This document shows, in pieces, positions 3,554-62,030 of a DNA stretch of 64,000 bases; position 1 is the first letter of the stretch; every line of letters starts with the position of its first letter. This stretch comes from a virus. Where the stretch lies: positions 62,001 to 126,000 of IMG/VR virus record IMGVR_UViG_3300035670_000014; one strand, 5' to 3'. The notes beneath the pieces were generated by a model. The model did not search any database. It saw only the letters and a list, made by a program, of their open reading frames with translations, and was not told where the DNA came from. Made by a program: the position numbers and the translations under genes.

Positions 3554-4549
3554 TTAGTCGTTTTTTATAGAGTTAGATAGAAGCTGCCTCAATGCACCTT
3601 GTATCGTTTCTCTTGGCTTTGTCACTATGAAGCCGGCTTTATAAAGTAAAGCTTGAAGCTGGGCATAGTGGCAGGGCGGATTGTCTCCAAGCCCTAGCCT
3701 GTGTACTAGGGTTATTCTATTTATAGGATCTAAAGAATACAAAGCTTCGTTCATAGAAACAATTAAAGTTTCAAAGTCAAGTGTATCCCTAAGATACTCT
3801 ATCTTACCAAAAGAGTCTTCATCAAAGTAATCTTCAGATTCAGACTCTGATTCAGATGACTCGTCTTCTGAGTATGAATCAGAGATATGATTCAAAGGGT
3901 TAAAAGAAAGAATGTAGTTGAGTAAAGCTTCAGCTTTCTTATCACTGAAGCCAAACTCTTCAACAACGTATGATATTGCATCATTGTTTATGGGTATATC
4001 ATTCTTCTTAACAAAAGCAAGGACCTTGCTTACGTCAGTAAGTACATGAACTGGGAGTCTGATTACTCTGTTCTTGTTGCTTATAGCCCTTGTAATTGCC
4101 TGTCTAATCCACCAGGTGGCATAGGTGGCTAGCTTCACACCCTCATCAAGATCAAAGCGCTCTATGGCCCTTATAAAGCCTATAACGCCCTCTTGAAAGA
4201 CATCATCAAATGGAAGACCGTTGTTTTGATAATACTTGGCATTCTTTATAACAAGCTTAAGGTTATGCTCTACAAGTTTATTCCTAAAGGAATTTGCTTT
4301 CTTAAGCATGTCGCTGTTATCTAGAATGTAATCTATTTCTGCAAGATCATCCATGTAGAAAAGATTTTCTATTGCAGATTCATTCAGTAGTATCTGCTCT
4401 TCAATTCTCTTCTTCTCTTTTAGTAACTGTGCCCTGGTGTTATAAGCACACTTAAATACAGTTAAGTAGTGAGCTTCCTGTTCCTTTGTAAGTCGAGGAT
4501 GCTTGTTAATAAAAGAAGATATAAAGTTTAAGGTTGTTTGTTCTGACAT
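3554..4549 (-). CDS. RNA polymerase sigma factor, sigma-70 family
   Basis: 331 residues. Region 2 is clear: FDDVFQEGVIGFIRAIERFD, then KLATYATWWIRQAITRAI, the usual -10 recognition and melting segment. Region 3-like sequence follows (NRVIRLPVHV). The C-terminal part is interrupted by a Ser/Glu/Asp-rich linker (SEDESSESESESEDYFDED) and has only a weak region 4 (SLDPINRITLVHRLGL). It probably redirects host polymerase to phage promoters. The start is preceded by GGAG, 2 nt after the stop of the Cas4-like gene. The acidic insert is unusual for a primary sigma. Confidence 0.92.
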   Translation of the reverse strand: MSEQTTLNFISSFINKHPRLTKEQEAHYLTVFKCAYNTRAQLLKEKKRIEEQILLNESAIENLFYMDDLAEIDYILDNSDMLKKANSFRNKLVEHNLKLVIKNAKYYQNNGLPFDDVFQEGVIGFIRAIERFDLDEGVKLATYATWWIRQAITRAISNKNRVIRLPVHVLTDVSKVLAFVKKNDIPINNDAISYVVEEFGFSDKKAEALLNYILSFNPLNHISDSYSEDESSESESESEDYFDEDSFGKIEYLRDTLDFETLIVSMNEALYSLDPINRITLVHRLGLGDNPPCHYAQLQALLYKAGFIVTKPRETIQGALRQLLSNSIKND

Positions 4550-4551
4550 GG

Positions 4552-5667
4552 TTACTCCTCTGTAGTCTCTTCGACTTCAGATACATCTTGATAAATTATT
4601 TCTCCTTGAACTTTACCATCAGGATATTCAATTGGAGTCTTCTTTGCATCAGCAGAGTAACACATATTAGAAAAGGGGCAATATCTACATTGCCAATCAC
4701 CTATCTTTATTTGAGAGAATTTATCTTTTGATGCTTTTTCTGAGTCAGTCTTATTAAGACTTCCAGATTCATAAAGTTCCTTGATCTTCTCTTCACTGTA
4801 GAAGAAGTCGTAATCCCTGGGAGGGATTAGATCAAGGTGAATAAACTTATGAGCAGACATGTATCTTCTTAAGATGTCTTCTGCGTAGAGTGTATACTTG
4901 TAAGGTTTCTTATTTACATAAACTCTATGCTGAACTCTACCAAGAGAAACACTGACCTCAGGTATAAGGTCAATATCGAACTCTACGCGACTACCATTCT
5001 CTCTAGAGAGATAAACTAACTTGAAGTAAGCCATCTCTTGCTGAAGTACACAAAAGAAATAAGCATAAAGAACAGTCTGAAGTAAGTTATCTTCTTTAGG
5101 CTCAGGTGGGACGTATATACCGCCCTTCTTTCTATGACCAAATACTTGCTTCATACCTTTGAAGCCGGTAATAGATTTAATTTCTACACCAACTTTAACA
5201 CCTGACTCAGGTGATTGGTAGGTTACAAGGTCAACTTCTCCTGAGATCAAGGCATCAGGTAGATTCTGATGAAGGGTGGGAATATACCATCTGAACTTTC
5301 TGGAGTTCTCGCTATAGACCATAGCTCTTTTAGCTTCGTCAGTTATTGCGTTTTCTGTATAACTAGAAATCTTAAACTTCCAAAGCTCTTGAGGAGTAAA
5401 CTCTTGCTTGTCAATGACGAGGTTCTGCTTCGTGGCAAACTCATTGTTTATCATTTGCCTTTGAAGTTTGTTTCTGAACCATGTCTTTCTTAAACAAGCC
5501 CCCAAAGAAACATAACCTCCATCTTCACCTATAGCTAAAGCAGAAGCTTCGCTAGGGTGTAGACTGACTTCAGTTGATGTCCTTGGGGGCTGTTCAAGTA
5601 TTGACTTATCTAGAGTCTCCCAGAAGTTAAAAGGATAGACTTCTGATAGAAACTTAGATTCAGTCAT
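4552..5667 (-). CDS. Cas4/AddB-like PD-(D/E)XK nuclease with predicted 4Fe-4S cluster
   Basis: 371 residues. Nuclease motifs are visible in order: SGEVDLV (catalytic Asp), VGVEIKSITG (E-x-K) and LLQTVLYAYFF (Q-x3-Y helix). A first cysteine in ACLRKTW (C58) and three more in WQCRYCPFSNMC near the C-terminus fit the 4Fe-4S arrangement that locks the N- and C-termini together in Cas4, AddB and AdnB. It probably resects or processes DNA ends with the RecA-like protein in the same block. No cas1/cas2 or repeat array is nearby, so an adaptation role is not supported. Confidence 0.85.
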   Translation of the reverse strand: MTESKFLSEVYPFNFWETLDKSILEQPPRTSTEVSLHPSEASALAIGEDGGYVSLGACLRKTWFRNKLQRQMINNEFATKQNLVIDKQEFTPQELWKFKISSYTENAITDEAKRAMVYSENSRKFRWYIPTLHQNLPDALISGEVDLVTYQSPESGVKVGVEIKSITGFKGMKQVFGHRKKGGIYVPPEPKEDNLLQTVLYAYFFCVLQQEMAYFKLVYLSRENGSRVEFDIDLIPEVSVSLGRVQHRVYVNKKPYKYTLYAEDILRRYMSAHKFIHLDLIPPRDYDFFYSEEKIKELYESGSLNKTDSEKASKDKFSQIKIGDWQCRYCPFSNMCYSADAKKTPIEYPDGKVQGEIIYQDVSEVEETTEE

Positions 5668-5670
5668 GTA

Positions 5671-6096
5671 TTATTCTCCAGGTGCTTCCGTTGCTTCTTG
5701 AGAAGCTGAGGGAAGATTAAGGGATAGCTGGTCTGTAGTAGTCATGGTAGGAGTAGCTGCTTTTAGTTTCTCAGCAACTTCCTGTACAACTTCATTAAGT
5801 TTAGCTTGAGCTTCGTCTCTCGACTTAGTAGCCCTCTCAAAGATTTCCTTGAACTGATCAAAGTTAAACTCTCCAGGAGAAACAATCTTCTCAAGAGTTA
5901 GCATGACTGCATCACAGAAAGCAGTGTAGTCAATGATTAGGTTCTCAAGAGAAACCTTTACGAGAAAGTTTGCAATAGCCATCTGATCAAGATTACCTAG
6001 GATCAACTTATCGCGATTGTTAAGTTCAGATACAGAGGTATTAAGAGAATCAAGTTCAGATTGGCACTGGCAGCACTGTTCGTTATTAGTAGACAT
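5671..6096 (-). CDS. Hypothetical coiled-coil protein
   Basis: 141 residues. It begins with a Cys pair segment (EQCCQCQSELDSL) followed by helical, Glu/Lys/Leu-rich sequence with coiled-coil character and an Ala/Thr/Pro-rich tail. No family is recognised. It sits between the metallophosphoesterase and the Cas4-like nuclease with 4-7 nt spacing, so it is co-expressed with replication genes. Confidence 0.75.
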   Translation of the reverse strand: MSTNNEQCCQCQSELDSLNTSVSELNNRDKLILGNLDQMAIANFLVKVSLENLIIDYTAFCDAVMLTLEKIVSPGEFNFDQFKEIFERATKSRDEAQAKLNEVVQEVAEKLKAATPTMTTTDQLSLNLPSASQEATEAPGE

Positions 6097-6102
6097 GTAA
6101 AC

Positions 6103-7425
6103 TCACTCAAATATGTTAATTGTTTTTATGTAATTAAAGTTGCTAATATCAGGACGGATATTACCATCTTTATCTTGGTAAATAACTGCATAGCCAACTA
6201 TAGAAGGTCTCCTTCTAAACTCAGCTTGCTTAAGGTAGCCTTGGGTCAAACATAGTGCACCTTGCTCTATGAGCAGTTTATTCTGCTCTATAAGCTTAGC
6301 TTGCTTATGTGTATGCCCCATTACGATAGAGTCAAATGAATTCCATGGCAATTGGCCTCTTAAATATTCCATGCCTCTTGTTACAGTAGCACCAGGCTGT
6401 GCAAGGTATGTATCAGGATGCATGAATATAGTCTTACCTACCTTGCCTAGCCAAGGTAAGCCTAGTTCGTTGTAGTAAACATTGGTGAAGTTGTAAGACC
6501 TACCAGTAAAACCGTTCTCATCTAGAATGAGGCCTTTAGATAGTTTATCAACAATATCGCGATTTCCAAGTATTGCTGAATAAGGGTCAAGCTTTTGGCT
6601 GAGATATCTATCAACTCTATTTTCATGATTACCCTTTACTAAGTGAACTTCGTCAAATCTGGAAGCCATTTCCTTAATGAAATTCAAGGCAAGCTGATAT
6701 TCTGACTGAAGAGGTATGCCCTTATCTTTTGAATAAGAAGATACTGAGTAACAGTCAAGTATGTCTCCGTTAAGAACAAGTATGTCTGCATTACCATCAT
6801 GCTCAAGTGCCATCTCTATTGCTTCAGTGTCATGGAAAGGCATGTGTAAGTCAGACAGGCTTAGTATTTTTCTTGTAGCCGGATTAGTAGAGAAGTAAAC
6901 TATCCCTGGTTTAGTTTTAGATAAGTACTCATTTCTTGCTGACATGTACTGCTCTGTAGCAGCAGCAGCCAAGTCAACCTTCGCTGCCTTTGCCGGCTTA
7001 ATCTCAACAGGAGCACAAGCTTCCTGGGTAGCTTCAGCTGTAGCAGAAGCTGCAACAGAGGCATCGCTAGACGAAGAGCTTCTAAGGGCATTTGACCTAA
7101 GGTTACAAGCTACATACCCAGGGGTTACAATCGGAAGATTGTCCATGTTAATTTCAGGAAAGTCCTGAGACTTAAAATGATGCCAAAGATTTGAGTAAAT
7201 AGAATTAATCAAACCAGCAGTAGGCCTGAATAGAAACTTAATATTAAAAGCATTAACTTCCATGACATGCATGTCAGAGTTCCTAATGCCTTGCTTGGGA
7301 TGTATATTGCAAATTGTATTTACCTTCTTTGCAGTATAGAAACCAAGTGAGCCATAGTATTCAAGTAAGCTTTCTCTTGTTTTAAATTCAGAAGGTTTTT
7401 TTAAGTTTAGTTTATTATTCGACAT
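6103..7425 (-). CDS. Calcineurin-like metallophosphoesterase
   Basis: 440 residues. The dimetal phosphoesterase motifs are complete: LSLSDLHMPFHD near residue 197, LVLNGDILD near 220, VKGNHENR near 262 and VMGHTHKQ near 372. The N-terminal 150 residues are Ala-rich and unrecognised, with a segment that may bind nucleic acid (KPSEFKTRESLLEYYGS). The substrate could be a cyclic nucleotide, a nucleic acid end or a phosphoprotein; the position next to the polymerase suggests nucleic acid. The start is preceded by GGGTAAA, a ribosome-site variant used repeatedly in this genome. Confidence 0.88.
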   Translation of the reverse strand: MSNNKLNLKKPSEFKTRESLLEYYGSLGFYTAKKVNTICNIHPKQGIRNSDMHVMEVNAFNIKFLFRPTAGLINSIYSNLWHHFKSQDFPEINMDNLPIVTPGYVACNLRSNALRSSSSSDASVAASATAEATQEACAPVEIKPAKAAKVDLAAAATEQYMSARNEYLSKTKPGIVYFSTNPATRKILSLSDLHMPFHDTEAIEMALEHDGNADILVLNGDILDCYSVSSYSKDKGIPLQSEYQLALNFIKEMASRFDEVHLVKGNHENRVDRYLSQKLDPYSAILGNRDIVDKLSKGLILDENGFTGRSYNFTNVYYNELGLPWLGKVGKTIFMHPDTYLAQPGATVTRGMEYLRGQLPWNSFDSIVMGHTHKQAKLIEQNKLLIEQGALCLTQGYLKQAEFRRRPSIVGYAVIYQDKDGNIRPDISNFNYIKTINIFE

Positions 7426-7427
7426 GT

Positions 7428-9860
7428 TTACCCATTGATAAATTTAATAACGCCGTTCTGTTTAAGTCTAAGAACTGCGGATCTTTCATCTACGCTGTAT
7501 TTAAAGTAGATAATAGACCCTACTTTAATCTTATCTTTATACTCCTCAACTGCATTTGGAAAGAGTGTTAGCTCAGCAACACCCGTCTTGTCCTCAACAG
7601 TGCAAGCATAAAGAGACTTGCCCTTCATCTTGCCTCTTTTTATCTGAATGTCCTCTATTCTGGTGATTACAACTAAACACCTACCAGACTGAGAGACCTG
7701 AGGTACGAGGTTATTAATGTAATCAAGTTCTATAGTAGGCGGTATTTTAATAAAGTCAATAGGGTGAGCTGAAATATATAAACCACAGTACTCACCTTCC
7801 CAGTCTACCATCTGCTTTGTGATTGATCTCTTTTCATAAACAGGAAGTTCAGGAAAAGAAGGCTCTTCTTTTGGCTTAGGAATTATAGGCTTCTTCGGCT
7901 TAGGCTCTGTATATATTTGCTTAGTACCATTCTCATCTATGACGGGAGTGGCAAGTCTGGTTATTACTTTAGTCTTGTAAAGATATTCCCAGTTAGCAAC
8001 TTCTATAGACCATTGCTCTAGTTCTTTATTCTTTAATTTTATATTAGCCTGATTCTCAAGATAAGAATCATACTGATTAAAGTAATCTAGAAGCAAAGGA
8101 AGTGAATCAACAAGGTCTTCTCTCTTGTGACCAAAAGCATCCAGTGCGCCTACTTTAGCAAGGATCGCCAAAGAGCCAGAGTTAACCTTTGATCTGTTGA
8201 TATTAGATAGCCAGTCCTTGAGAGTCTTAGCCTTGTGTACATTGCCGGCGATTAGATAGTTCGCCACAGATTTACCTATACCTTTTAGAATATCAATGCC
8301 AAATCTTATCTTGTTAGCTCCAACCTTGGCAAAGCCAATGTGAGGAGTAGTAACAGAAGGAGGAAGCATTTCTATTCCCATCGCTCTACACTCGTCTATA
8401 TAGGACTTAAGTTTATCTGGCTTATTAGACCTGAGACTCATAAGCTCAATCATAAACTCTACTGTAGAGTAAGCCTTTAGATAGGCGCAAGAGTAAGCTA
8501 TCAATGCATAAGCATAAGCATGTGGCTTGTTAAAGCCATAGCCTGAAAACTTATCAATGTATTCCCATACATAGCTTGCTTCACTCTCTGTAATCTTAGA
8601 GTTCTGAATGCAACCTTGAATAAACCTATCCTTCCACGACTGCATCTCTACTGGGTCCTTCTTACCCATTGCTCTTCTTACATTGTCAGAAGTCTCTTCA
8701 GAGAAGCCAGCAAGAACAGAAAGTGCAGCCATGCACTGTTCCTGGTAAACAAGAACACCGCCTGTCTCGGCTAGGACTGAATCAAGAAGTGGGTGAATCT
8801 TATTCTGAAGTAAGCCTGTTTTCTTGTACTCAATCCAGTCGTCAGTAAGACCATTGTCTTTAGGACCCGGTCTGATTAGTGCGCTAATAGCAGCTAAGTC
8901 TGCAACAGTAGTAGGCTGAACCTCGCTAATAACCTGGAATACATGGGACTCTTCCATCTGGAAAATGCCAGAAACAAATCCCTGGTTTATTAGCGTGAAA
9001 GCTTTAGGATCGTCAAGAGGAACCTCTTCCTGAATCCAGTCAACTGTTTTTCCGATTGCTGCTGTTGTATTCTTGAGTAGATCAAGGTTGTCAATAACAA
9101 GAATGTCAAACTTAATAAGGTTGCAATTCTTCTCAAGAGCGCCAGCTTCCCACTGAGATAAGTAGTACCAATTACCTTGATCATCTTTCTCTCCTTTAAC
9201 CTTACGTAAAGGGATATAGCTGTCCAAATAATCAGAGCCAATAATCACAGCAGAAGCATGCTGAGATTGATTCATAGGTTGCTTGTCCATTGTAGCAACA
9301 CATGAAAATACTTCTTTGTGCTGTTCTATAATCTCAGCGTAAACAGGATCATCCTTAAGGTCAATCCAGGTAGTTGCCTTACCACGATAGCTATCAGGCA
9401 GGCTGTCAGCCAAGGCGCGACCTTCTTCAAAAGTTCCACCTAGTGCTTTTGTAAAGTCAACTGTAGAACTCTTAACAGAATAAGGAGTATAAGTAGTAGG
9501 TCTAATAACACAAAGTTCACCATATTTATTCTGTAATTCTTTTATAATTACATCTTTCCCTGATGGAGAAAAGTCTGTATCTATATCTGGTCCTGCGCCA
9601 GTTACAGTAGAAGAACACCTCTTAGACTTGTCATAGTTATCACTATCAGAAAACAAGTAGAGCAATATGGAGTTACTTTTATTCTCAAGCTTCTTATTGA
9701 TATACTTCTTATCTATTACAATGCGAGTAAAGTCTTCATCGGTGATATACTTTAACTCGAATAGCAAATACCTGAAAGGTACATTCAATGTATACTTTAG
9801 ATAATCTAGCTTCTCATTAGCTTCCCTATTAACAATCTCTAGTTTAGTTTTTAAGTCCAA
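7428..9860 (-). CDS. dnaE: DNA polymerase III alpha subunit, C-terminal half (palm catalytic residues to OB domain)
   Basis: About 810 residues from a TTG at 9860, chosen because GGAGA lies 5 nt upstream; an ATG at 9950 would overlap the preceding gene by 107 nt and has no support. After a non-conserved 75-90 residue leader the protein enters the DnaE palm at PDIDTDFSPSGKD (two catalytic Asp), then KFDIL (third Asp), finger motifs such as FGYGFNKPHAYAYAL-like sequence near the middle, and an OB fold near the C-terminus. The PHP domain and PGRGS motif are encoded by a separate gene at 10241-11491. Together the halves make a full-length family C polymerase. Confidence 0.9.
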   Translation of the reverse strand: MDLKTKLEIVNREANEKLDYLKYTLNVPFRYLLFELKYITDEDFTRIVIDKKYINKKLENKSNSILLYLFSDSDNYDKSKRCSSTVTGAGPDIDTDFSPSGKDVIIKELQNKYGELCVIRPTTYTPYSVKSSTVDFTKALGGTFEEGRALADSLPDSYRGKATTWIDLKDDPVYAEIIEQHKEVFSCVATMDKQPMNQSQHASAVIIGSDYLDSYIPLRKVKGEKDDQGNWYYLSQWEAGALEKNCNLIKFDILVIDNLDLLKNTTAAIGKTVDWIQEEVPLDDPKAFTLINQGFVSGIFQMEESHVFQVISEVQPTTVADLAAISALIRPGPKDNGLTDDWIEYKKTGLLQNKIHPLLDSVLAETGGVLVYQEQCMAALSVLAGFSEETSDNVRRAMGKKDPVEMQSWKDRFIQGCIQNSKITESEASYVWEYIDKFSGYGFNKPHAYAYALIAYSCAYLKAYSTVEFMIELMSLRSNKPDKLKSYIDECRAMGIEMLPPSVTTPHIGFAKVGANKIRFGIDILKGIGKSVANYLIAGNVHKAKTLKDWLSNINRSKVNSGSLAILAKVGALDAFGHKREDLVDSLPLLLDYFNQYDSYLENQANIKLKNKELEQWSIEVANWEYLYKTKVITRLATPVIDENGTKQIYTEPKPKKPIIPKPKEEPSFPELPVYEKRSITKQMVDWEGEYCGLYISAHPIDFIKIPPTIELDYINNLVPQVSQSGRCLVVITRIEDIQIKRGKMKGKSLYACTVEDKTGVAELTLFPNAVEEYKDKIKVGSIIYFKYSVDERSAVLRLKQNGVIKFING

Positions 9861-10248
9861 AGTAATCTCCGTAATCAGGTAAAGTTTCAGACAAAGCACC
9901 AAGGGTAGCAAGAACAGAGAACTCAAAAGTGGTAATACCGAAAGGAACAAACTCTAAAAGTCTAATTGAGTTTAGAATGTCAAGTTTATCAAAGTTATTT
10001 ATAAGAACAGATCCATAACTTGTCCTGTCTGCATTAATCACTTTAGTTATTCCTCTTATTTCCCTTACGGCAAGTTCAACAAAAGGTCCCTGAAAAGTTG
10101 GTGGAGATATATATGTTCCATTGGTTAATCCGGCAATGGTTACTATATAGAAATATGCAAGATTGTGACTTCTTGAATACCATGTAGGAAAACAATAGAT
10201 TGAAGAATCATCAAAATCTAATTTAAAGTAAGATTTGTTTTCACTCAT
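9844..10248 (-). CDS. Small unknown protein inserted between the two polymerase halves
   Basis: 134 residues starting at ATG 10248, which overlaps the TGA of the polymerase N-half (ATGAGTGA). Its end overlaps the TTG start of the C-half by 17 nt. The sequence (SENKSYFKLDF, TWYSRSHNLAYFYIV) shows no homing-endonuclease or intein motif. Because it separates two parts of one enzyme it may be a structural bridge, an unrelated insertion or the remains of a mobile gene. Function unknown. Confidence 0.7.
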   Translation of the reverse strand: MSENKSYFKLDFDDSSIYCFPTWYSRSHNLAYFYIVTIAGLTNGTYISPPTFQGPFVELAVREIRGITKVINADRTSYGSVLINNFDKLDILNSIRLLEFVPFGITTFEFSVLATLGALSETLPDYGDYFGLKN

Positions 10249-11491
10249 CAAGCTCACCACAGAAGTCAAGAGAAACTTTAACTCTACCTGGGTTTAAGAA
10301 TCTTGAAAAGTAAAATCCATTAGCAATGGGGTCCATATGCTTACCAGTAAGACCCAAAGCCCAAGCAAGGAGAGAGCCACCAGATGAACCTCTACCTGGG
10401 CCAACTGGTATGTCGTTATCTTTAGCTATCTTAATATAGTCAGCAACCATTAAGAAGTAAGAGTTATAAGAGCTATCATCAATCAGATCAATCTCGAACT
10501 TTAGTTGCTTCTTATAAGCGGGAGGAATTGGATCAGTATCTGACAAGTTAAGCCTAGACCTGAGGCCTTCAAAGGCCAGTCTCTCAAGCTCATAGAAAGC
10601 TTCCTCGTTTGACATATGGTCAAACTTAATAGGCGGATTCTTAATAGATGAAAAGAAGTAAGAGCTATCTACCATGTCTGCAACATAGCCAGTATTGTGC
10701 ACTGCTTCCTCGGGTATGTTCCATTGCCTACATAACTCCAAAGCAAAGTCTGTATCATACAACCATGCATTGTAGTCTTGTATTGGATACTTAGAATCCA
10801 GATAAGACATGTGCCATCCAATGCACTGAACTAGACCTCTAAGTTTCCATTGATCTTGATCTGACTGGTGGGCGTCAGCAGTAAGAACCAAGGGAACATT
10901 ATGCTTCTTAGAAAGAGGAATAATAAGCTGATCATTAAATTGTTTCTGAAGGTCAACATTATTAACTTGAACTTCTGCAAAGAAGTTATCTCGGCCAACA
11001 ATATCTCTAATCTTCAAGAACCATTCTTCTGCGAGGTCTAACCTGTTAGCTTTAAAGAATGTTGCCATGTGGCTGGATAAGCAAGTAGAAGTAACTATAA
11101 GGCCATCACAATGCTTAGAGAAAGTCTCTATGTCAATACGAGGAAACCTGTGAAAGCCATCACTAAAGGCATAAGTATTAAGCTTAAGTAAGTTCTTATA
11201 GCCTGTCTCATTCTTTGCAAGGCAAAGAAAGTGTCCGTTATTACCCCAGTCCTCATGTGTCTTTTCAGTAGCAGGGCCAAAAGAAAGATAAGTTTCGTTG
11301 CCAATGATTGGCTTAACTCCAGCTTTCTGACAGCCTTTTGCGAATTCTAGAACACCTGATAAAGTACCATGGTCACTTAATGCACAAGCAGTCATGCCTC
11401 TAGACTTGACAACATCACCAATCTTATCCGCTCTCTGAATGCCGTCCTTTAGAGAATTACTCGAATGAACATGTAAATGTACAAATGGCAT
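10241..11491 (-). CDS. dnaE: DNA polymerase III alpha subunit, N-terminal half (PHP domain and start of palm)
   Basis: 416 residues. PHP motif HLHVHSS is at residues 5-11 and SDHGTLSG near 40. The N-terminal palm includes VGPGRGSSGGSLLAWALG and SRFLNPGRVKVSL, which in DnaE proteins immediately precedes the catalytic PDxDxDF. Here the frame ends nine residues later (DFCGELDE), and the catalytic motif reappears in the C-half gene. The two proteins therefore have to associate to form an active polymerase, or be joined in some other way. No intein signature is present at the break. Confidence 0.9.
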   Translation of the reverse strand: MPFVHLHVHSSNSLKDGIQRADKIGDVVKSRGMTACALSDHGTLSGVLEFAKGCQKAGVKPIIGNETYLSFGPATEKTHEDWGNNGHFLCLAKNETGYKNLLKLNTYAFSDGFHRFPRIDIETFSKHCDGLIVTSTCLSSHMATFFKANRLDLAEEWFLKIRDIVGRDNFFAEVQVNNVDLQKQFNDQLIIPLSKKHNVPLVLTADAHQSDQDQWKLRGLVQCIGWHMSYLDSKYPIQDYNAWLYDTDFALELCRQWNIPEEAVHNTGYVADMVDSSYFFSSIKNPPIKFDHMSNEEAFYELERLAFEGLRSRLNLSDTDPIPPAYKKQLKFEIDLIDDSSYNSYFLMVADYIKIAKDNDIPVGPGRGSSGGSLLAWALGLTGKHMDPIANGFYFSRFLNPGRVKVSLDFCGELDE

Positions 11492-12515: not shown

Positions 12516-13718
12516 TCATTGAATATGGTAGTAATTACATGGAACCTTAGATAGATTATTCTTTGGTCCTTTATTAATTACCAGTATATCTAAAGGAATA
12601 TTAATTGTGGTGTCAATAGGTGAGTATACGCCATCGCTTAATAATAAAACTCTAGATACATCAGGTAATGAATCTGCAAGGCTAAGTGCCTCTGTAAAGT
12701 TTGTACCACCTCCTCCTCTAAATTCAGCCTTAAGAAAGTCCGCAAGAGAAGAATAAGAAGATACAACCTTACAGTCAGAAACAATTATCTTTGTGTTTAT
12801 ACCTCTTCTTGTAAAACCCAAAGCAACCTGAAGATAAAGATTATAGTAATCTTTATTAGTTGAACCTGATGTATCTAGAATTAAACAGACAGAGTTATTG
12901 TGATTAACTTTAACTCTACCTGGAAGGGTGTCATGGTATCTATTAATACGAGAGTATGAGTAGTCATAGTCCTGACTATCAGAAAGAAACTCATCGTAAG
13001 GATAAAGCTTAATTAAAAGTGGATTTATCCTTGTAAGAGATACGCCGGAAAGAAAAGAATTATTTGAGGAAGAAGTCTCAGGTAACATGGAGTTACTAAG
13101 AGACTTCATCAAGGAAGCAGAAGATTCCATAATCTTTAGATTAGACTTTAAGTCTATACTCTTGGACTCGTTAATACAAATAATCATATCCGTAGAGTCA
13201 GGAGTATAGTTTTCGTTATCTATAAGTTCCTCAAAGTAAATATCCTCGACAGTATGAGTTTCAAGACTCTGATTTGACTTGAGAAAATAACCAGAAAATG
13301 GATATGTAAAGTCAAGATCAATAGTCAGAATCTTTTGAATCCAAGAATTAATATATCTATCTAGAGCTACATTCCTTCTATATAGATCTTCGACAGTATT
13401 AATTTGATCTTGGACTCTCCATGGGTGACCGAGGAATAAATGAGCTGTCTCATGTAGTATGAGATGTAAAAGTTGAGGATCCGATATTGAGTCTATATAA
13501 GGTGAGTGATAAATGACACTATACTTATTGTCTTTACCGAAGTAAAGACATGCAGTTAGTTTAAAATCACTACCGTACTGAGACTTAAGTGCATCCTCAT
13601 TTTCTTTTGTCATCTCCAGCCAAGGAAGAAGCTTGGCCATTTTAGAAATATCGCCTACTTTATGAGACAATTTCATTAGAGTATTTTTGCAATTCTCAAT
13701 GCGAGAATAAGCAGACAT
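12516..13718 (-). CDS. VWA protein with HExxH metallopeptidase-like domain
   Basis: 400 residues. The N-terminal domain has HETAHLFLGHPWR near residue 90, an HExxH zinc motif. The C-terminal domain has a MIDAS start CLILDTSGSTNKDYY near 282, the mid-motif GGGGTNFTEAL and a late Asp in LLLSDGVYSP, making a VWA fold. This peptidase-like plus VWA architecture is the DUF2201 type. It overlaps by 1 nt with the AAA+ ATPase upstream, the usual MoxR-VWA pairing, suggesting a chaperone-like remodelling complex. Confidence 0.85.
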   Translation of the reverse strand: MSAYSRIENCKNTLMKLSHKVGDISKMAKLLPWLEMTKENEDALKSQYGSDFKLTACLYFGKDNKYSVIYHSPYIDSISDPQLLHLILHETAHLFLGHPWRVQDQINTVEDLYRRNVALDRYINSWIQKILTIDLDFTYPFSGYFLKSNQSLETHTVEDIYFEELIDNENYTPDSTDMIICINESKSIDLKSNLKIMESSASLMKSLSNSMLPETSSSNNSFLSGVSLTRINPLLIKLYPYDEFLSDSQDYDYSYSRINRYHDTLPGRVKVNHNNSVCLILDTSGSTNKDYYNLYLQVALGFTRRGINTKIIVSDCKVVSSYSSLADFLKAEFRGGGGTNFTEALSLADSLPDVSRVLLLSDGVYSPIDTTINIPLDILVINKGPKNNLSKVPCNYYHIQ

Positions 13719-44852: not shown

Positions 44853-45743
44853 TTAGAAAGCATACCTTATCCTGCAATAGGGGATGTACTCTTGTATTAC
44901 AGATTTAAAATTAGAAACACTTTTAGCCTTTAAATCGTATTTATAGCAAATAACATCAGGCTTGTTGTATTTAGTTTGTTGACTCTTAGGATTCCAAAGG
45001 AATGATTCTCCCTTTGGGTTCCATACTTCGTTGATCTTATGAAGCTGCTCACTATGGGTGAGCATTATGACTTCACAAGCAAGTTGATCTTTGGCCTTCT
45101 GAGATAAAGTTGAATCAATAAGCTGGAAAAGCTTAATCCAGTCCTGCCTGGCACCAGGATAAAGAATCACCGGACTAAAGTTCAAGTGAACTTCATAGCC
45201 GGCATCAACAAGTTGATTGATTGCATTTATTCTTGCTGATATTTGACTAGTCCTGATGTCAACATATTGGGATATAGATTGAGGCATAAGGCTATACCTT
45301 ATCCTTACCCTATCCCCAGGATCAAAAGCCAGTAGAGGGGCAATATTGACCGTTTTAGTAGCAAAGCTAACCTTAGCATTCTCGCTGTGCTTAACAGCTT
45401 CCATTATTTCCAGTGGAATGTTGGAAATCATAAGGTCAAGGCTTACATCATTGTTATTACCAATGTCATAAGTCCAATACTTGGAATCACACTGATTAGG
45501 TTCAAGCTTAGGACCCAAAGAGTTAGAATGAGAAATTATAGAATCTATAACATCATCTGTATTAACAAATATAGTAACAGGATTAGAACCACCCTTTCTA
45601 CGAGCCGTATAACAGTTGTGAGTTAGAATATTTTCAGCAAAATAATTTTCATAAACAGGAACATGGAAATTATAAACAGTCGTATTTTTTTCAATTTTCT
45701 TTATACTTTGAATTTTAGAAAACTTAGGAGTTTTAAGTTGCAT
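44853..45743 (-). CDS. Split-intein C-part fused to C-extein of a spore-photoproduct-lyase-like radical SAM enzyme
   Basis: 296 residues. Residues 1-43 form a C-intein: VYNFHVPVYENYFAENI is block F and ILTHN is block G with the terminal Asn. The extein starts at Cys44 (CYTARRKGG), which is both the +1 nucleophile and the last cysteine of the CX3CX2C cluster motif. The rest carries SPL-like blocks (RIRYSLMPQSI, YEVHLNFSPVILYPGARQDW). It must be joined to the N-part at 46276-46902 to give a complete enzyme. Its 5' end overlaps the divergent HNH frame. Confidence 0.92.
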   Translation of the reverse strand: MQLKTPKFSKIQSIKKIEKNTTVYNFHVPVYENYFAENILTHNCYTARRKGGSNPVTIFVNTDDVIDSIISHSNSLGPKLEPNQCDSKYWTYDIGNNNDVSLDLMISNIPLEIMEAVKHSENAKVSFATKTVNIAPLLAFDPGDRVRIRYSLMPQSISQYVDIRTSQISARINAINQLVDAGYEVHLNFSPVILYPGARQDWIKLFQLIDSTLSQKAKDQLACEVIMLTHSEQLHKINEVWNPKGESFLWNPKSQQTKYNKPDVICYKYDLKAKSVSNFKSVIQEYIPYCRIRYAF

Positions 45744-46574
45744 AACTGTTCTGTTTGTGGAAAGTTTACTAATAAAAAATGCTGTGAAGAAAAAGTATTC
45801 CTAGAGAAAGGTTTAGTATTTAACTATCACAGTGAAGCTGCAAGATATTTTAATGTAGATTCAAGATATGCAAAAAGAAAACTCTATAATGTAAACTATA
45901 CTTTAAGTGAAATAAAAATAACAAAAAACAGCAAACTAGTTAATTGTAAAATTTGCAATCAATCATCAATAACTTCAAAATGTAGAGCTGGATATTGTAA
46001 AAATTGCTCTCGTAAAGGATTAGGTAAGAAAACTAGAGGAATAGAATTAAGAAATAAATACCTTGGAGAGAAAAATCCAAACTTTAAAGATGGTAAAGCA
46101 AGGCAGTCGATAAGAAACAGACATGAATGGAAAGAAATAAGAAAAGAAATTCTTTCAGAAAGACAATGCTGTGAAGTAAGTGGACATAGTAAATACTTAC
46201 ATCTTCATCATATATTGCCAGTTTGCTTATTTCCACAATATTCATTAGAAAAATGGAACATTATTGTTCTTCAGGCTAATCTACACATAGAAGTTCATCG
46301 TCAAGATTTAGATATTGTGCTTCTACCCAACCTCTGTTCTTTGTATAAAGAGGATGTTCACCTGATACGCGAAGAGTTCGTCCGTCAACTGAAATTTCAT
46401 AAATTTCACTTACTTGACGAGATGCCAAATGAAAAGCTTGAGCTACTAAAGGAGAACCAGAATTGGTATCGTAAGAAATTACATCTGATCCCGATAGAAT
46501 TTGTTCTACAGGAATTTGGCCACTTGGAGTGGATATCAAAGTTCCTTCTTCCACGCAGTAGAGGCAAGAACTAA
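45663..46574 (+). CDS. HNH homing endonuclease between the split-intein halves, opposite strand
   Basis: Open frame of 303 residues; a TTG start at 45738 would reduce overlap with the C-intein. It has cysteine pairs (CSVCGKFTNKKCC, CKICNQ..CRAGYCKNC) like zinc ribbons, an HTH-like stretch (SEAARYFNVDSRYAKRKL), a GEKNPNFKDGKAR segment and the nuclease core LHLHHILPVCLFPQ..N..LHIEVH. The core ends near 46300. The following 90 codons are antisense to the N-intein and may not be functional. It would be the homing partner that spreads the split intein. Confidence 0.88.
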   Translation: MEIINSRIFFNFLYTLNFRKLRSFKLHNCSVCGKFTNKKCCEEKVFLEKGLVFNYHSEAARYFNVDSRYAKRKLYNVNYTLSEIKITKNSKLVNCKICNQSSITSKCRAGYCKNCSRKGLGKKTRGIELRNKYLGEKNPNFKDGKARQSIRNRHEWKEIRKEILSERQCCEVSGHSKYLHLHHILPVCLFPQYSLEKWNIIVLQANLHIEVHRQDLDIVLLPNLCSLYKEDVHLIREEFVRQLKFHKFHLLDEMPNEKLELLKENQNWYRKKLHLIPIEFVLQEFGHLEWISKFLLPRSRGKN

Positions 46575-46902
46575 AACAGCCGTTTGCATGAGACGGCGGA
46601 ATAAAATCAGTTGACCTTCCAGAATCAGTCATTGCCATATTAGACATACGACCAATAACAAGAACATGTCTTTTATTTGCTATCCAATCTACAGGATCGG
46701 CCTTAGCTAAATCTGGAATAAGCCAGTGATTCTTAACATATTTAACTTCATAGTTAGAGCCAGAATCTGCAAGCTTTTGACAGATTGATGTGATTCTAGA
46801 TATTTCCTTTTCACTATAATTACAATTCTGTATATAAAGAGTATTTATATCACTCAGTTTAATCACTAGGTCCCCTTGGTTGGTATTAAGAAAAGGCCCC
46901 AA
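46276..46902 (-). CDS. N-extein of a spore-photoproduct-lyase-like enzyme with split-intein N-part
   Basis: 208 residues. Residues 1-115 are extein ending NGCFSSCLY, the first two cysteines of a radical SAM CX3CX2C motif. Cys116 starts the intein: CVEEGTLISTPSGQIPVEQI is block A and TLRVSGEHPLYTK is block B. The frame stops 93 residues into the intein (DDELLCVD). Splicing would give ...CFSSCLY joined to CYTARRKGG, about 368 residues in total. The predicted activity is radical SAM repair of DNA, by family; the substrate is uncertain. Confidence 0.92.
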   Translation of the reverse strand: MGPFLNTNQGDLVIKLSDINTLYIQNCNYSEKEISRITSICQKLADSGSNYEVKYVKNHWLIPDLAKADPVDWIANKRHVLVIGRMSNMAMTDSGRSTDFIPPSHANGCFSSCLYCVEEGTLISTPSGQIPVEQILSGSDVISYDTNSGSPLVAQAFHLASRQVSEIYEISVDGRTLRVSGEHPLYTKNRGWVEAQYLNLDDELLCVD

Positions 46903-59754: not shown

Positions 59755-59926
59755 ACTTTCTCCCACGGCGACTCGCTGCCTCTAGGCGAGGGTGCGACGT
59801 ACCTAACCACCTCGCGCCAAACCGGCGAAAAGCAATCTCAAGCATTTCTGCCTGAAGCTCGGCCTGTGATTTTGACCGCACTTCGTCAAGCAGTCGATCT
59901 ATGAGCTGCTTCGTTTCGGTGCTCAT
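59735..59926 (-). CDS. Small Arg/Glu-rich helical protein
   Basis: 63 residues from ATG 59926, which lies in GGGAGGCAGTATG. Helical and charged (QLIDRLLDEVRSKSQAEL). Its end covers the conserved junction DNA in another frame (RRGRKYDTEIT), so the DNA motif has been kept without the SPWEEV reading. Unknown function. Confidence 0.66.
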   Translation of the reverse strand: MSTETKQLIDRLLDEVRSKSQAELQAEMLEIAFRRFGARWLGTSHPRLEAASRRGRKYDTEIT

Positions 59927-60027
59927 ACTGCCTCCCATGGCGATTCGTCGCCGCAGCCGTTGCCGCTGCCGTCGCGGCCACTGCTGTAGCCGTAGCCGCA
60001 TCCTGTCTGTGTATTATTCTGAGTCAT
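59923..60027 (-). CDS. Mini glycine-rich protein ending in SPWEAV
   Basis: 34 residues (MTQNNTQTGCGYGYSSG ... DESPWEAV), too short for a standard ORF cutoff. It combines the MTQNNTQTG start of the GC-rich glycine family with the SPWEEV-type end, so it looks like a recombinant or minimal cassette. Its stop overlaps the next ATG. Confidence 0.68.
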   Translation of the reverse strand: MTQNNTQTGCGYGYSSGRDGSGNGCGDESPWEAV

Positions 60028-60029
60028 CG

Positions 60030-60539
60030 TCATCGCGAGTACCCGAGTTCCCGCAAGCGAATCAATATCATATACGCGGACACATCGAAGTCGCGCGCCA
60101 GCTGGTTACCGTCCACCATCCCACGCACCCGGATGGCTGCATGCATGTAGTCGGTCGGCATAAGGAAGCTGGTAGCAAACCGATTAGCCTGTCGTTCCTG
60201 GATGGGGTCACCGCTTCCCCGAAGTTCGGTGTCTCGAAATACCAGACCGATGGGGTGCAGGAGGATGTGCCCAAGTTCGTGCGCCATCGTGAACCGCTGG
60301 CGTTGGTGCGAATCGCCAGCCCGAACCCAAATCTGGCCATATCCAAGCACGTCGGTCTTGGCAGCGCCGGCCACGTCCATCACCGAGCGATAGACTGCGA
60401 TGCCCAAGGAGTTGCAGAGCGCCTCCACATTAACTGGCAGACCCTTGACTTGAAGCTGATTCAAAACCAACTGCGCCGCAAGTTGTGGGGAGTTAGTAGC
60501 CCACGTTTCCACTATGTTTTTGAGTTCAGTCCAATGCAT
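60030..60539 (-). CDS. ImmA/IrrE-family metallopeptidase
   Basis: 169 residues from ATG 60539 (MHWTELKN). The zinc motif is FTMAHELGHILLHP, with the third ligand region QERQANRFATSFLMP; this matches ImmA/IrrE enzymes, which cleave helix-turn-helix repressors. GC-rich codons, unlike the phage core. It lies between glycine-rich cassettes, with no repressor gene next to it. Confidence 0.88.
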   Translation of the reverse strand: MHWTELKNIVETWATNSPQLAAQLVLNQLQVKGLPVNVEALCNSLGIAVYRSVMDVAGAAKTDVLGYGQIWVRAGDSHQRQRFTMAHELGHILLHPIGLVFRDTELRGSGDPIQERQANRFATSFLMPTDYMHAAIRVRGMVDGNQLARDFDVSAYMILIRLRELGYSR

Positions 60540-60702
60540 GCCGACCTCGCGAGCTAGGTGTTGACTCGCTGCAACCGTATCCGCTGCTATGAGCGCCGCC
60601 ATAACCACTACCGCCGGTGTTGCCGGTGCCGTAGCCTTCACCGTATCCGTAGCCGCTGCCGGAGCCGACGCCTGTCTGTGTATTATTCTGAGTCATAGTC
60701 AT
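60526..60702 (-). CDS. GC-rich glycine-repeat protein
   Basis: 58 residues (MTMTQNNTQTGVGSG..., GYGEGYGTGNTGGSGYGG) ending CSESTPSSRGRHALD. The end resembles the SESP junction but is out of register. Overlaps the ImmA start. Confidence 0.7.
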   Translation of the reverse strand: MTMTQNNTQTGVGSGSGYGYGEGYGTGNTGGSGYGGAHSSGYGCSESTPSSRGRHALD

Positions 60703-61030
60703 CATCGTCATCACTTGCGGTGCCATTGCCATAGCCTTCTCCCTCTCCAAAGCCGAAACCGTTACCGTAGCCATAGCTATCGCCGCTACCATAGCCATCA
60801 CCGCCACCAGAGCCGGTGCCGTAACAATAGCCTAATCCGTTTCCAGATCCGTAACCTTTGCCCCATCCGTAGCCATCGTCATCGCCATAACCATCGCCAG
60901 AGCCAGAGCCTTTTCCGCGGCCAGAGCATTTTCCGCGGCCAGATCCGTAACCTTTGCCCCATCCGCAGCCGAAACGGTATCCGTTGCCGGAGCCGCTGTC
61001 TATCTGTGTATTATTCTGGGTCATTGTCAT
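60683..61030 (-). CDS. GC-rich glycine-repeat protein
   Basis: 115 residues, alternating X-G dipeptides (GYGSGRGKCSGRGKGSGSG, GFGFGEGEGYGNG) after the MTMTQNNTQ start, acidic end (DDDDDYDSE). DNA is a degenerate 6-bp GGCNAC-type repeat. Confidence 0.72.
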   Translation of the reverse strand: MTMTQNNTQIDSGSGNGYRFGCGWGKGYGSGRGKCSGRGKGSGSGDGYGDDDGYGWGKGYGSGNGLGYCYGTGSGGGDGYGSGDSYGYGNGFGFGEGEGYGNGTASDDDDDYDSE

Positions 61031-61364
61031 CTCCGCAGCCTTCGCCGTAGCCGTTGCCTCCGCCGTTGCCGTCGCCGCGACGGTAGCCGCTGCCGTAGCC
61101 GTCTCCGGCGCCATAGCCATAGCCGTAGCCATCACCGCATCCATGGCCGCGACCGGGGCCACAACCATCTCCGCTGCCGTAGCCTTCGCCGTTGCCATAT
61201 CCATAGCCATATCCATATCCGCAGCCGTCGCCGTTGCCATGGCCATAGCTGTAGCCATAGCCGTAGCCATCACCGCATCCATGGCCTCGACCATCGGCGT
61301 ATCCTTCTCCGCAGCCATCGCCGCGCCCTGATTCGGTCTGTGTATTATTCTGTGCTATCGACAT
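61011..61364 (-). CDS. GC-rich glycine-repeat protein
   Basis: 117 residues beginning MSIAQNNTQTESGRG. Long alternating GYGYG/GDG tract ending GCGDDNDPE. The start overlaps the upstream stop by 20 nt. Confidence 0.72.
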   Translation of the reverse strand: MSIAQNNTQTESGRGDGCGEGYADGRGHGCGDGYGYGYSYGHGNGDGCGYGYGYGYGNGEGYGSGDGCGPGRGHGCGDGYGYGYGAGDGYGSGYRRGDGNGGGNGYGEGCGDDNDPE

Positions 61365-61680
61365 CGCCACCTCCATCGCCGCGACCGCAATCGTAGCCAC
61401 CACCGTAGCCGCAGCCATGGCCGTAGCCATCTCCTTCGCCGTAACCTTCGCCGTAGCCGTCGCCGTTGCCGTAGCCGACGCCGCCGCCGTAGCCGCTGCC
61501 GTATCCGCTACCGCTACCGTCGCCATTTCCTTTGACGTGACCTTCGCCGTTGCCGTAGCCGTGGCCGTCTCCGGTGCCCCAGCCGTAGGCGTAGCCGTAG
61601 CCGCCTCCCTCGCTGCCGTCGCGGCCACTTCCGTAGCCGTTGCCGTAGCCGTCGCCGCGCCCTGAAGTCACGGTGTCCAT
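61345..61680 (-). CDS. GC-rich glycine-repeat protein
   Basis: 111 residues (MDTVTSGRGDGYGNGYGSG...). It lacks the QNNTQT start of the other three. Its ATG overlaps the stop codon region of the DUF6948-like gene. Confidence 0.72.
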   Translation of the reverse strand: MDTVTSGRGDGYGNGYGSGRDGSEGGGYGYAYGWGTGDGHGYGNGEGHVKGNGDGSGSGYGSGYGGGVGYGNGDGYGEGYGEGDGYGHGCGYGGGYDCGRGDGGGDVDSTE

Positions 61681-61967: not shown

Positions 61968-62030
61968 GATCTCTTCTCCTCTTGTTACGCCCGAAATTGG
62001 GCATTTTGCGAACCAAAATATGGAATGTAG

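Follow-up and report, generated by a model that had tools for sequence, protein, structure and literature searches.

The replicative DNA polymerase gene of a large uncultured phage in the IMG/VR collection is broken through the coding region of its active site, and the two parts very likely work as a two-chain enzyme. We analyzed a 64,000-nucleotide (nt) stretch (the window; positions 62,001 to 126,000 of record IMGVR_UViG_3300035670_000014), in which dnaE, encoding the alpha subunit of DNA polymerase III (Pol III), is present as two minus-strand genes, an N-half (11491-10241) and a C-half (9860-7428). An original prediction, made from the sequence alone, held that the polymerase is split just before its catalytic aspartates and must act as a heteromer; the split is real, and the heteromer is upheld as the best reading. 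We infer that the two products form an active, non-covalent Pol III alpha, in which the PHP nuclease and the half of the palm that binds nucleotides would come from the N subunit, and the metal-binding strand together with thumb, fingers, HhH and OB regions from the C subunit.

By its domains and motifs dnaE is a C-family replicase, with polymerase activity predicted. Pfam and PHROG profiles, together with AlphaFold models compared by Foldseek to Pol III structures, spread the PHP, palm, fingers, HhH and OB parts over both genes, the Pfam match to the OB part of the C-half falling slightly below the cut-off. Pfam and alignment bear out that the PHP domain and the GPGRGS motif lie in the N-half and all three metal-binding aspartates in the C-half, where all 65 sequences of the alignment carry them (D92, D94 and D252, C-half numbering). 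The letters HHDHEHCDH, which define an active PHP site (PMC12926913), are all intact. In the AlphaFold model, compared by Foldseek, the C-half folds like a normal Pol III (mean predicted local distance difference test score 84.7, falling to about 50 in an N-terminal leader); the N-half is modelled with confidence up to a region shortly before its end, which is uncertain together with the final 12 residues. No other polymerase of family A, B or C was found in the 171-kilobase record, which may be incomplete.

The profiles place the break: PF07733 is divided between the N-half (profile positions 2-101) and the C-half (102-259), and phrog_405 breaks at 441/443. The N-half (416 amino acids (aa)) ends in ...FLNPGRVKVSLDFCGELDE; its last clearly aligned residue is R403 (codon 10285-10283), and 692 nt separate this residue from the PDIDTDF motif (from 9590), whereas intact relatives have about 12 nt there. 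In intact homologues the spacing from GxGRGS to PDID is 41-44 residues, the sole exception being locus L024, which has an intein inside. In the window the interval holds a short N-half tail (N-tail), a middle open reading frame (ORF) and the leader of the C-half. The best start for the C-half is TTG at 9860, giving 810 aa with a 90-aa leader ahead of PDIDTDF; the mechanical ORF call begins further upstream, at TTG 9950. The claim that all junctions overlap holds for the two internal ones (8 nt between N-half and middle ORF, 17 nt between middle ORF and C-half) and fails at the outer ones, where a 2-nt gap follows the C-half and 112 nt lie between the N-half and a PhoH gene.

Seven other IMG/VR contigs, falling into two sub-clades with C-halves about 44% identical to that of the window, carry the same break, which is thus neither chance nor a sequencing error. 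They also share the short N-tail and a homologous C-half leader (for example KLENKSNSILLYLFSDSDNYDKSKRCSSTVTGAG and KLSNKSNSALIYALGLSDIYNPDERVTYHVDGEG, each running directly into PDIDTDF). Gene order in L012/L093 matches the window (VWA, PhoH, N-half, small ORF, C-half, phosphoesterase). Close relatives turned up only by alignment-based searches and none by single-protein scans; a DNA pattern search with a GITGKHLDP-type signature returned known split contigs, L020, which is intact, and a single chance hit without relation (L200). In clade A the ratio of non-synonymous to synonymous substitution (dN/dS) is lowest in the two halves (0.02-0.03), higher in the leader (0.07-0.11) and highest in the middle ORF (0.11-0.14), with leader dN about ten times that of the polymerase core. 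By these ratios halves, leader and middle ORF all look translated and constrained. The tail, too, evolves as a protein, and in the window tail, leader and middle ORF show coding-type codon usage that is best in their own frames (the tail is short, at 13 codons).

Inspection of 177 loci for the break site showed the same break in the dnaE of several phages that are otherwise unrelated. Cultured phages carry it as well; the original prediction mentions neither. Between the halves lie a LAGLIDADG_3 gene in L023 and a GIY-YIG gene in L063; L032, for which near-identical contigs exist, has the same-site split with no middle gene; and L059, L065 and L073 form a further group. Cultured Cbastvirus phages are of the L059/L073 type: in Cellulophaga phage phiST (L224, KC821604.1, 3192-6792) gp044 and gp045 are the two dnaE halves, and Tenacibaculum phage Larrie (L225, ON950054.1, 2701-6281) is split at the same site. 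Their N-tail is about 50 aa and conserved (..EGDxLIKY), their C-half leader is about 19 aa (MKIINIEQNTAPKLVNGTL ahead of PDID), and phrog_12219 corresponds to their C-half. We considered these tails as intein relics and set the idea aside, the best Hint_2 match (E 0.04, L063) not being significant. On a quick C-half tree the splits require five state changes, four of them forced by strongly supported branches. Close relatives of L023 are unbroken at the window's site. Among them, L192-L195 have dnaE interruptions further down, near FNKSH in L193-L195, those of L194 and L195 looking intein-like.

The region around the break is also an insertion hot spot. In Bacteroides phage DAC23 (L180, coding sequence 3579-7412) DnaE remains a single chain, with about 60 residues inserted in frame exactly at the site, possibly related to the Cbastvirus-type tail and leader; the DAC23 and Pbunavirus polymerases were examined as candidate splits and rejected, both being single genes. 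Within about 40 residues upstream of the break site, L024 and L031 hold inteins between GRG and S of PGRGS (that of L031 interrupted by other genes), and in L025 a seamless, intron-like interruption (4926-6001) separates LFER from FLNP; it encloses a LAGLIDADG gene and has no Rfam match. Breaks at other positions also occur: DnaE of Microbacterium phage DannyDe (L222, 3501-6852) is cut between PHP and polymerase core, and that of Rossellomorea phage phiT1 (L005, 2986-6268) after the third catalytic aspartate with a 49-aa ORF between. Both resemble the window in having DnaE in two adjacent genes, or nearly so, and differ from it in the position of the cut.

The C-half leader had been described as novel. 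Leader profiles instead give moderate evidence for decay from a duplicate of one palm segment, the one that in intact enzymes bears GPGRGS and leads into PDIDxDF; we consider this origin somewhat the more probable. A profile of the window and sister leaders found its best match in the segment before the catalytic strand (P 0.015; 2 of 150 column shuffles scored as high), and adding the leaders of L023 and L032 strengthened the match (P 3.9e-5; none of 150). Searched against profiles of intact polymerases, the leader profiles matched this segment and no other part, and the L032 leader matched it even when used by itself (SGSSVAYLIGITDYAP against aaGslvayalgitevdP; 0 of 2000 shuffles). The GPGRGS loop would have been lost from the leader copy and retained by the N-half. 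The leader might instead be an unrelated, newly evolved domain, a possibility with real weight that we place below decay: the window leader alone has no significant match to the palm segment and is modelled with low confidence, yet the family and combined profiles match only that segment, collinearly and adjoining PDID. Leader queries against the phage collection gave no match. The N-tail, tempting by eye as a decayed catalytic strand (LDFSED against VDFSQD), gave nothing significant.

Resemblance among the leaders themselves could also mean that tail, endonuclease and leader moved as a unit into the dnaE of different phages, with a leader ancestry independent of the polymerase. The leaders of the window family, L023 and L032 are alike (HHalign 81 and 89; 0 of 200 shuffles) and have in common KK[YL]xN...S, which is absent from intact enzymes; their polymerases fall in separate lineages, and L023 has the intact relatives described above. 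However, only three lineages are involved and the similarity is short, separate decay of the same segment might yield such likeness, and the window family and L032 lack an endonuclease. On balance we regard such a mobile cassette as doubtful. As the start of the split itself we favour insertion of a homing-endonuclease-type element, at slightly less than even odds; at the window's site the element would since have been lost or replaced, while other phages still show one there. In a fuller scheme, which we offer tentatively and think unlikely to hold in every part, C-family polymerases would fracture repeatedly in the stretch from the nucleotide-binding loop to the catalytic aspartate pair, each time hit by a mobile cassette of endonuclease and a leader mimicking the displaced palm segment; the halves would survive as a two-chain replicase, and endonuclease loss would fix the inherited state, as in the phage group of the window.

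Between the halves, as predicted, lies a 134-residue gene of no known family (10248-9844, minus strand); none of the libraries searched holds a relative, and the genome has no paralogue. Considered as a hidden endonuclease, it found no match in the library searches; no endonuclease gene was found between the window halves, and the LAGLIDADG_3, GIY-YIG and HNH_3 families are absent from the record. The middle ORFs of clades A and B (L093 5643-5957; L095 5640-5930) are homologous and very diverged, and that of the window is unrelated to either; by these comparisons the position is fixed and the gene is fast-changing or replaced. The small protein had been proposed, with the leader, as a new interface, but because it is unrelated between window and sisters it is not the conserved one. 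As judged from the loci compared, the break site accepts different passenger genes, and the middle gene would be one such replaceable passenger. An enzyme of three subunits, with the middle protein as an obligatory bridge, would fit the retention of a small ORF overlapping both halves in all three sub-clades here and its purifying selection in clade A; it is improbable given the unrelated middle proteins and the splits of L032 and cultured Cbastvirus phages, which do without a middle gene.

A two-chain polymerase in which leader and N-tail serve as contact between the halves we consider likely, if less so than the two-chain state itself. The leader with the short N-tail would be the probable contact or cap; the leader may keep the palm of the C-half in place until the N-half, bringing the functional copy of the segment, has docked. 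Two points weigh against this account besides the non-significant match and low model confidence of the window leader: the middle ORF is under selection and so does something, and no endonuclease or relic of one is recognisable in the window or sisters.

Splicing at the RNA level would make the mature enzyme a single chain, with the 692-nt stretch a self-splicing or degenerate intron. Phage polymerase genes often hold introns, and the L025 insertion lies nearby; still, Rfam showed no intron in the window (E up to 5) or in scans of eight other loci, and none in the sisters. Tail, middle ORF and leader code for protein and are under constraint nearly end to end, and the leader keeps its protein-level homology across sisters, so that a ribozyme would have little space. 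We judge an intron very improbable. Rejoining by a split intein or other protein ligation appears more improbable still. Phages do use split inteins, and the dnaE of L024 and L031 holds inteins close by, but the break shows no Hint or intein match in Pfam and no splice-junction residues, in keeping with the original prediction: the polymerase part of the C-half begins with Pro, not Cys, Ser or Thr, with no HN ahead, and the N-tail is just 13-17 aa. The window genome itself seems to carry a split intein in a fractured spore-photoproduct-lyase-like gene (44853-46902). Its N-intein ORF (46276-46902, minus strand) has the intein starting at SCLY/CVEEGTLIS and its C-intein ORF (44853-45743, minus strand) ends in ILTHN/CYTARR; a 303-aa plus-strand ORF between them (45663-46574) looks HNH-like by eye and has no Pfam match. 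That gene displays typical split-intein features, so the dnaE break is of a different kind. An assembly error or pseudogene, suggested only by the oddity of the split, is already refuted: seven contigs share the break, and their halves are intact and constrained. The condition that the original prediction set for its own refutation, intact sister polymerases with identical flanks plus an assembly error, fails, since every close relative found has the split. The search brought up no very close sister with an intact gene; the single-gene relatives are L020 and many others.

Two elements of this picture are known already: endonuclease-linked splits of phage enzymes, and a minimal Pol III alpha split at the same functional boundary. 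Homing-endonuclease genes-in-pieces include Aeh1 nrdA/mobE, T4 gene 60/mobA and gene 43A/43B, and the separate pieces of phage gp43 and NrdA come together again as working enzymes (PMC2988022). Like the window, these are essential phage enzymes in two chains with short gene overlaps; they differ in the enzyme (gp43 belongs to family B) and in the endonuclease, which we did not find in the window. Polymerase genes of Jug phages are interrupted by intervening endonuclease sequences (PMC12363816), an element likewise not found in the otherwise comparable window. Group 2.2 jumbo phages have a minimal Pol III alpha split between nucleoside triphosphate (NTP)-binding and Mg-binding parts, with reassembly proposed (Iyer et al. 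2021, PMC7824862). The window shares this break at the level of the boundary as stated there. The minimal form lacks other Pol III domains, its genes are distant and a family B polymerase stands alongside, in contrast to the window, where PHP and later domains are present, the genes form a single operon, and searches of the possibly incomplete record gave no family B polymerase. The full-length DnaE of Cbastvirus phages (phiST, phi19:2, phi13:1 and Larrie), in two adjacent genes with the same cut site, is likewise among the closest known systems; its halves are annotated merely as 'DNA polymerase III alpha subunit', and it differs in C-half lineage (via L059/L065/L073), in its longer N-tail and its shorter leader, and in having no middle gene. 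Cyanobacterial DnaE is also made in two pieces, joined by a split intein near the FNKSH motif; that intein sits at another site, and none was found at the dnaE break of the window. In the open-access literature, with many journals outside its scope, we found no report of a full-length PHP-bearing DnaE split at this site, of its recurrence or of a decayed-segment leader.

Coordinates of the split dnaE and its neighbours are collected in Table 1. Further upstream, a VWA/metallopeptidase-like protein (12516-13718) matches phrog_1314, labelled 'HNH endonuclease', a label that is probably wrong. At 59901-61680 the window has several long ORFs overlapping on both strands.

Table 1. Features of the split dnaE locus (window coordinates)
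Feature	Position	Strand	Basis
dnaE N-half gene: PHP and nucleotide-binding half of palm, 416 aa	10241..11491	-	ORF, Pfam, intact PHP letters HHDHEHCDH
PHP domain, N-half residues 5-175	10967..11479	-	Pfam PF02811, E 1.3e-37
GPGRGS motif, N-half residues 364-369	10385..10402	-	Sequence and alignment
N-tail VKVSLDFCGELDE, 13 aa (sisters: VRITLDYSEDMKELENA and similar)	10244..10282	-	Kept in sisters
692-nt stretch at site of about 12 nt in intact dnaE	9591..10282	-	Comparison with intact homologues
GGTGAG, Shine-Dalgarno-like, for middle ORF	10253..10258	-	Read from sequence
Middle ORF, 134 aa, ATG 10248, no family match	9844..10248	-	Library searches, coding-type codon use
GGAG, Shine-Dalgarno-like, for C-half	9867..9870	-	Read from sequence
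dnaE C-half gene, TTG start, 810 aa: leader, metal-binding strand, thumb/fingers, HhH, OB	7428..9860	-	ORF, Pfam, AlphaFold and Foldseek
C-half leader, 90 aa, probably decayed copy of pre-catalytic palm segment	9591..9860	-	Homology, profile comparisons
PDIDTDF catalytic strand, first two metal-binding Asp	9570..9590	-	Alignment
Third metal-binding Asp, C-half D252	9105..9107	-	Invariant in 65/65
Calcineurin-like phosphoesterase neighbour; adjoins dnaE in L012 and intact L020 as well	6103..7425	-	Gene-neighbourhood comparison
PhoH-like neighbour; equivalent position in L012	11604..12509	-	Gene-neighbourhood comparison

Family databases hold such halves as distinct families, their cause unnamed. 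The repeated division of a replicative polymerase within its active site, in different phages, is a natural experiment on how two chains can make up a palm: with the PHP and nucleotide-binding half separate from the metal-binding half, each can be purified and their assembly tested. More generally, the case bears on how insertions in essential genes turn permanent, and on whether a decayed or cassette-borne segment becomes a new interface.

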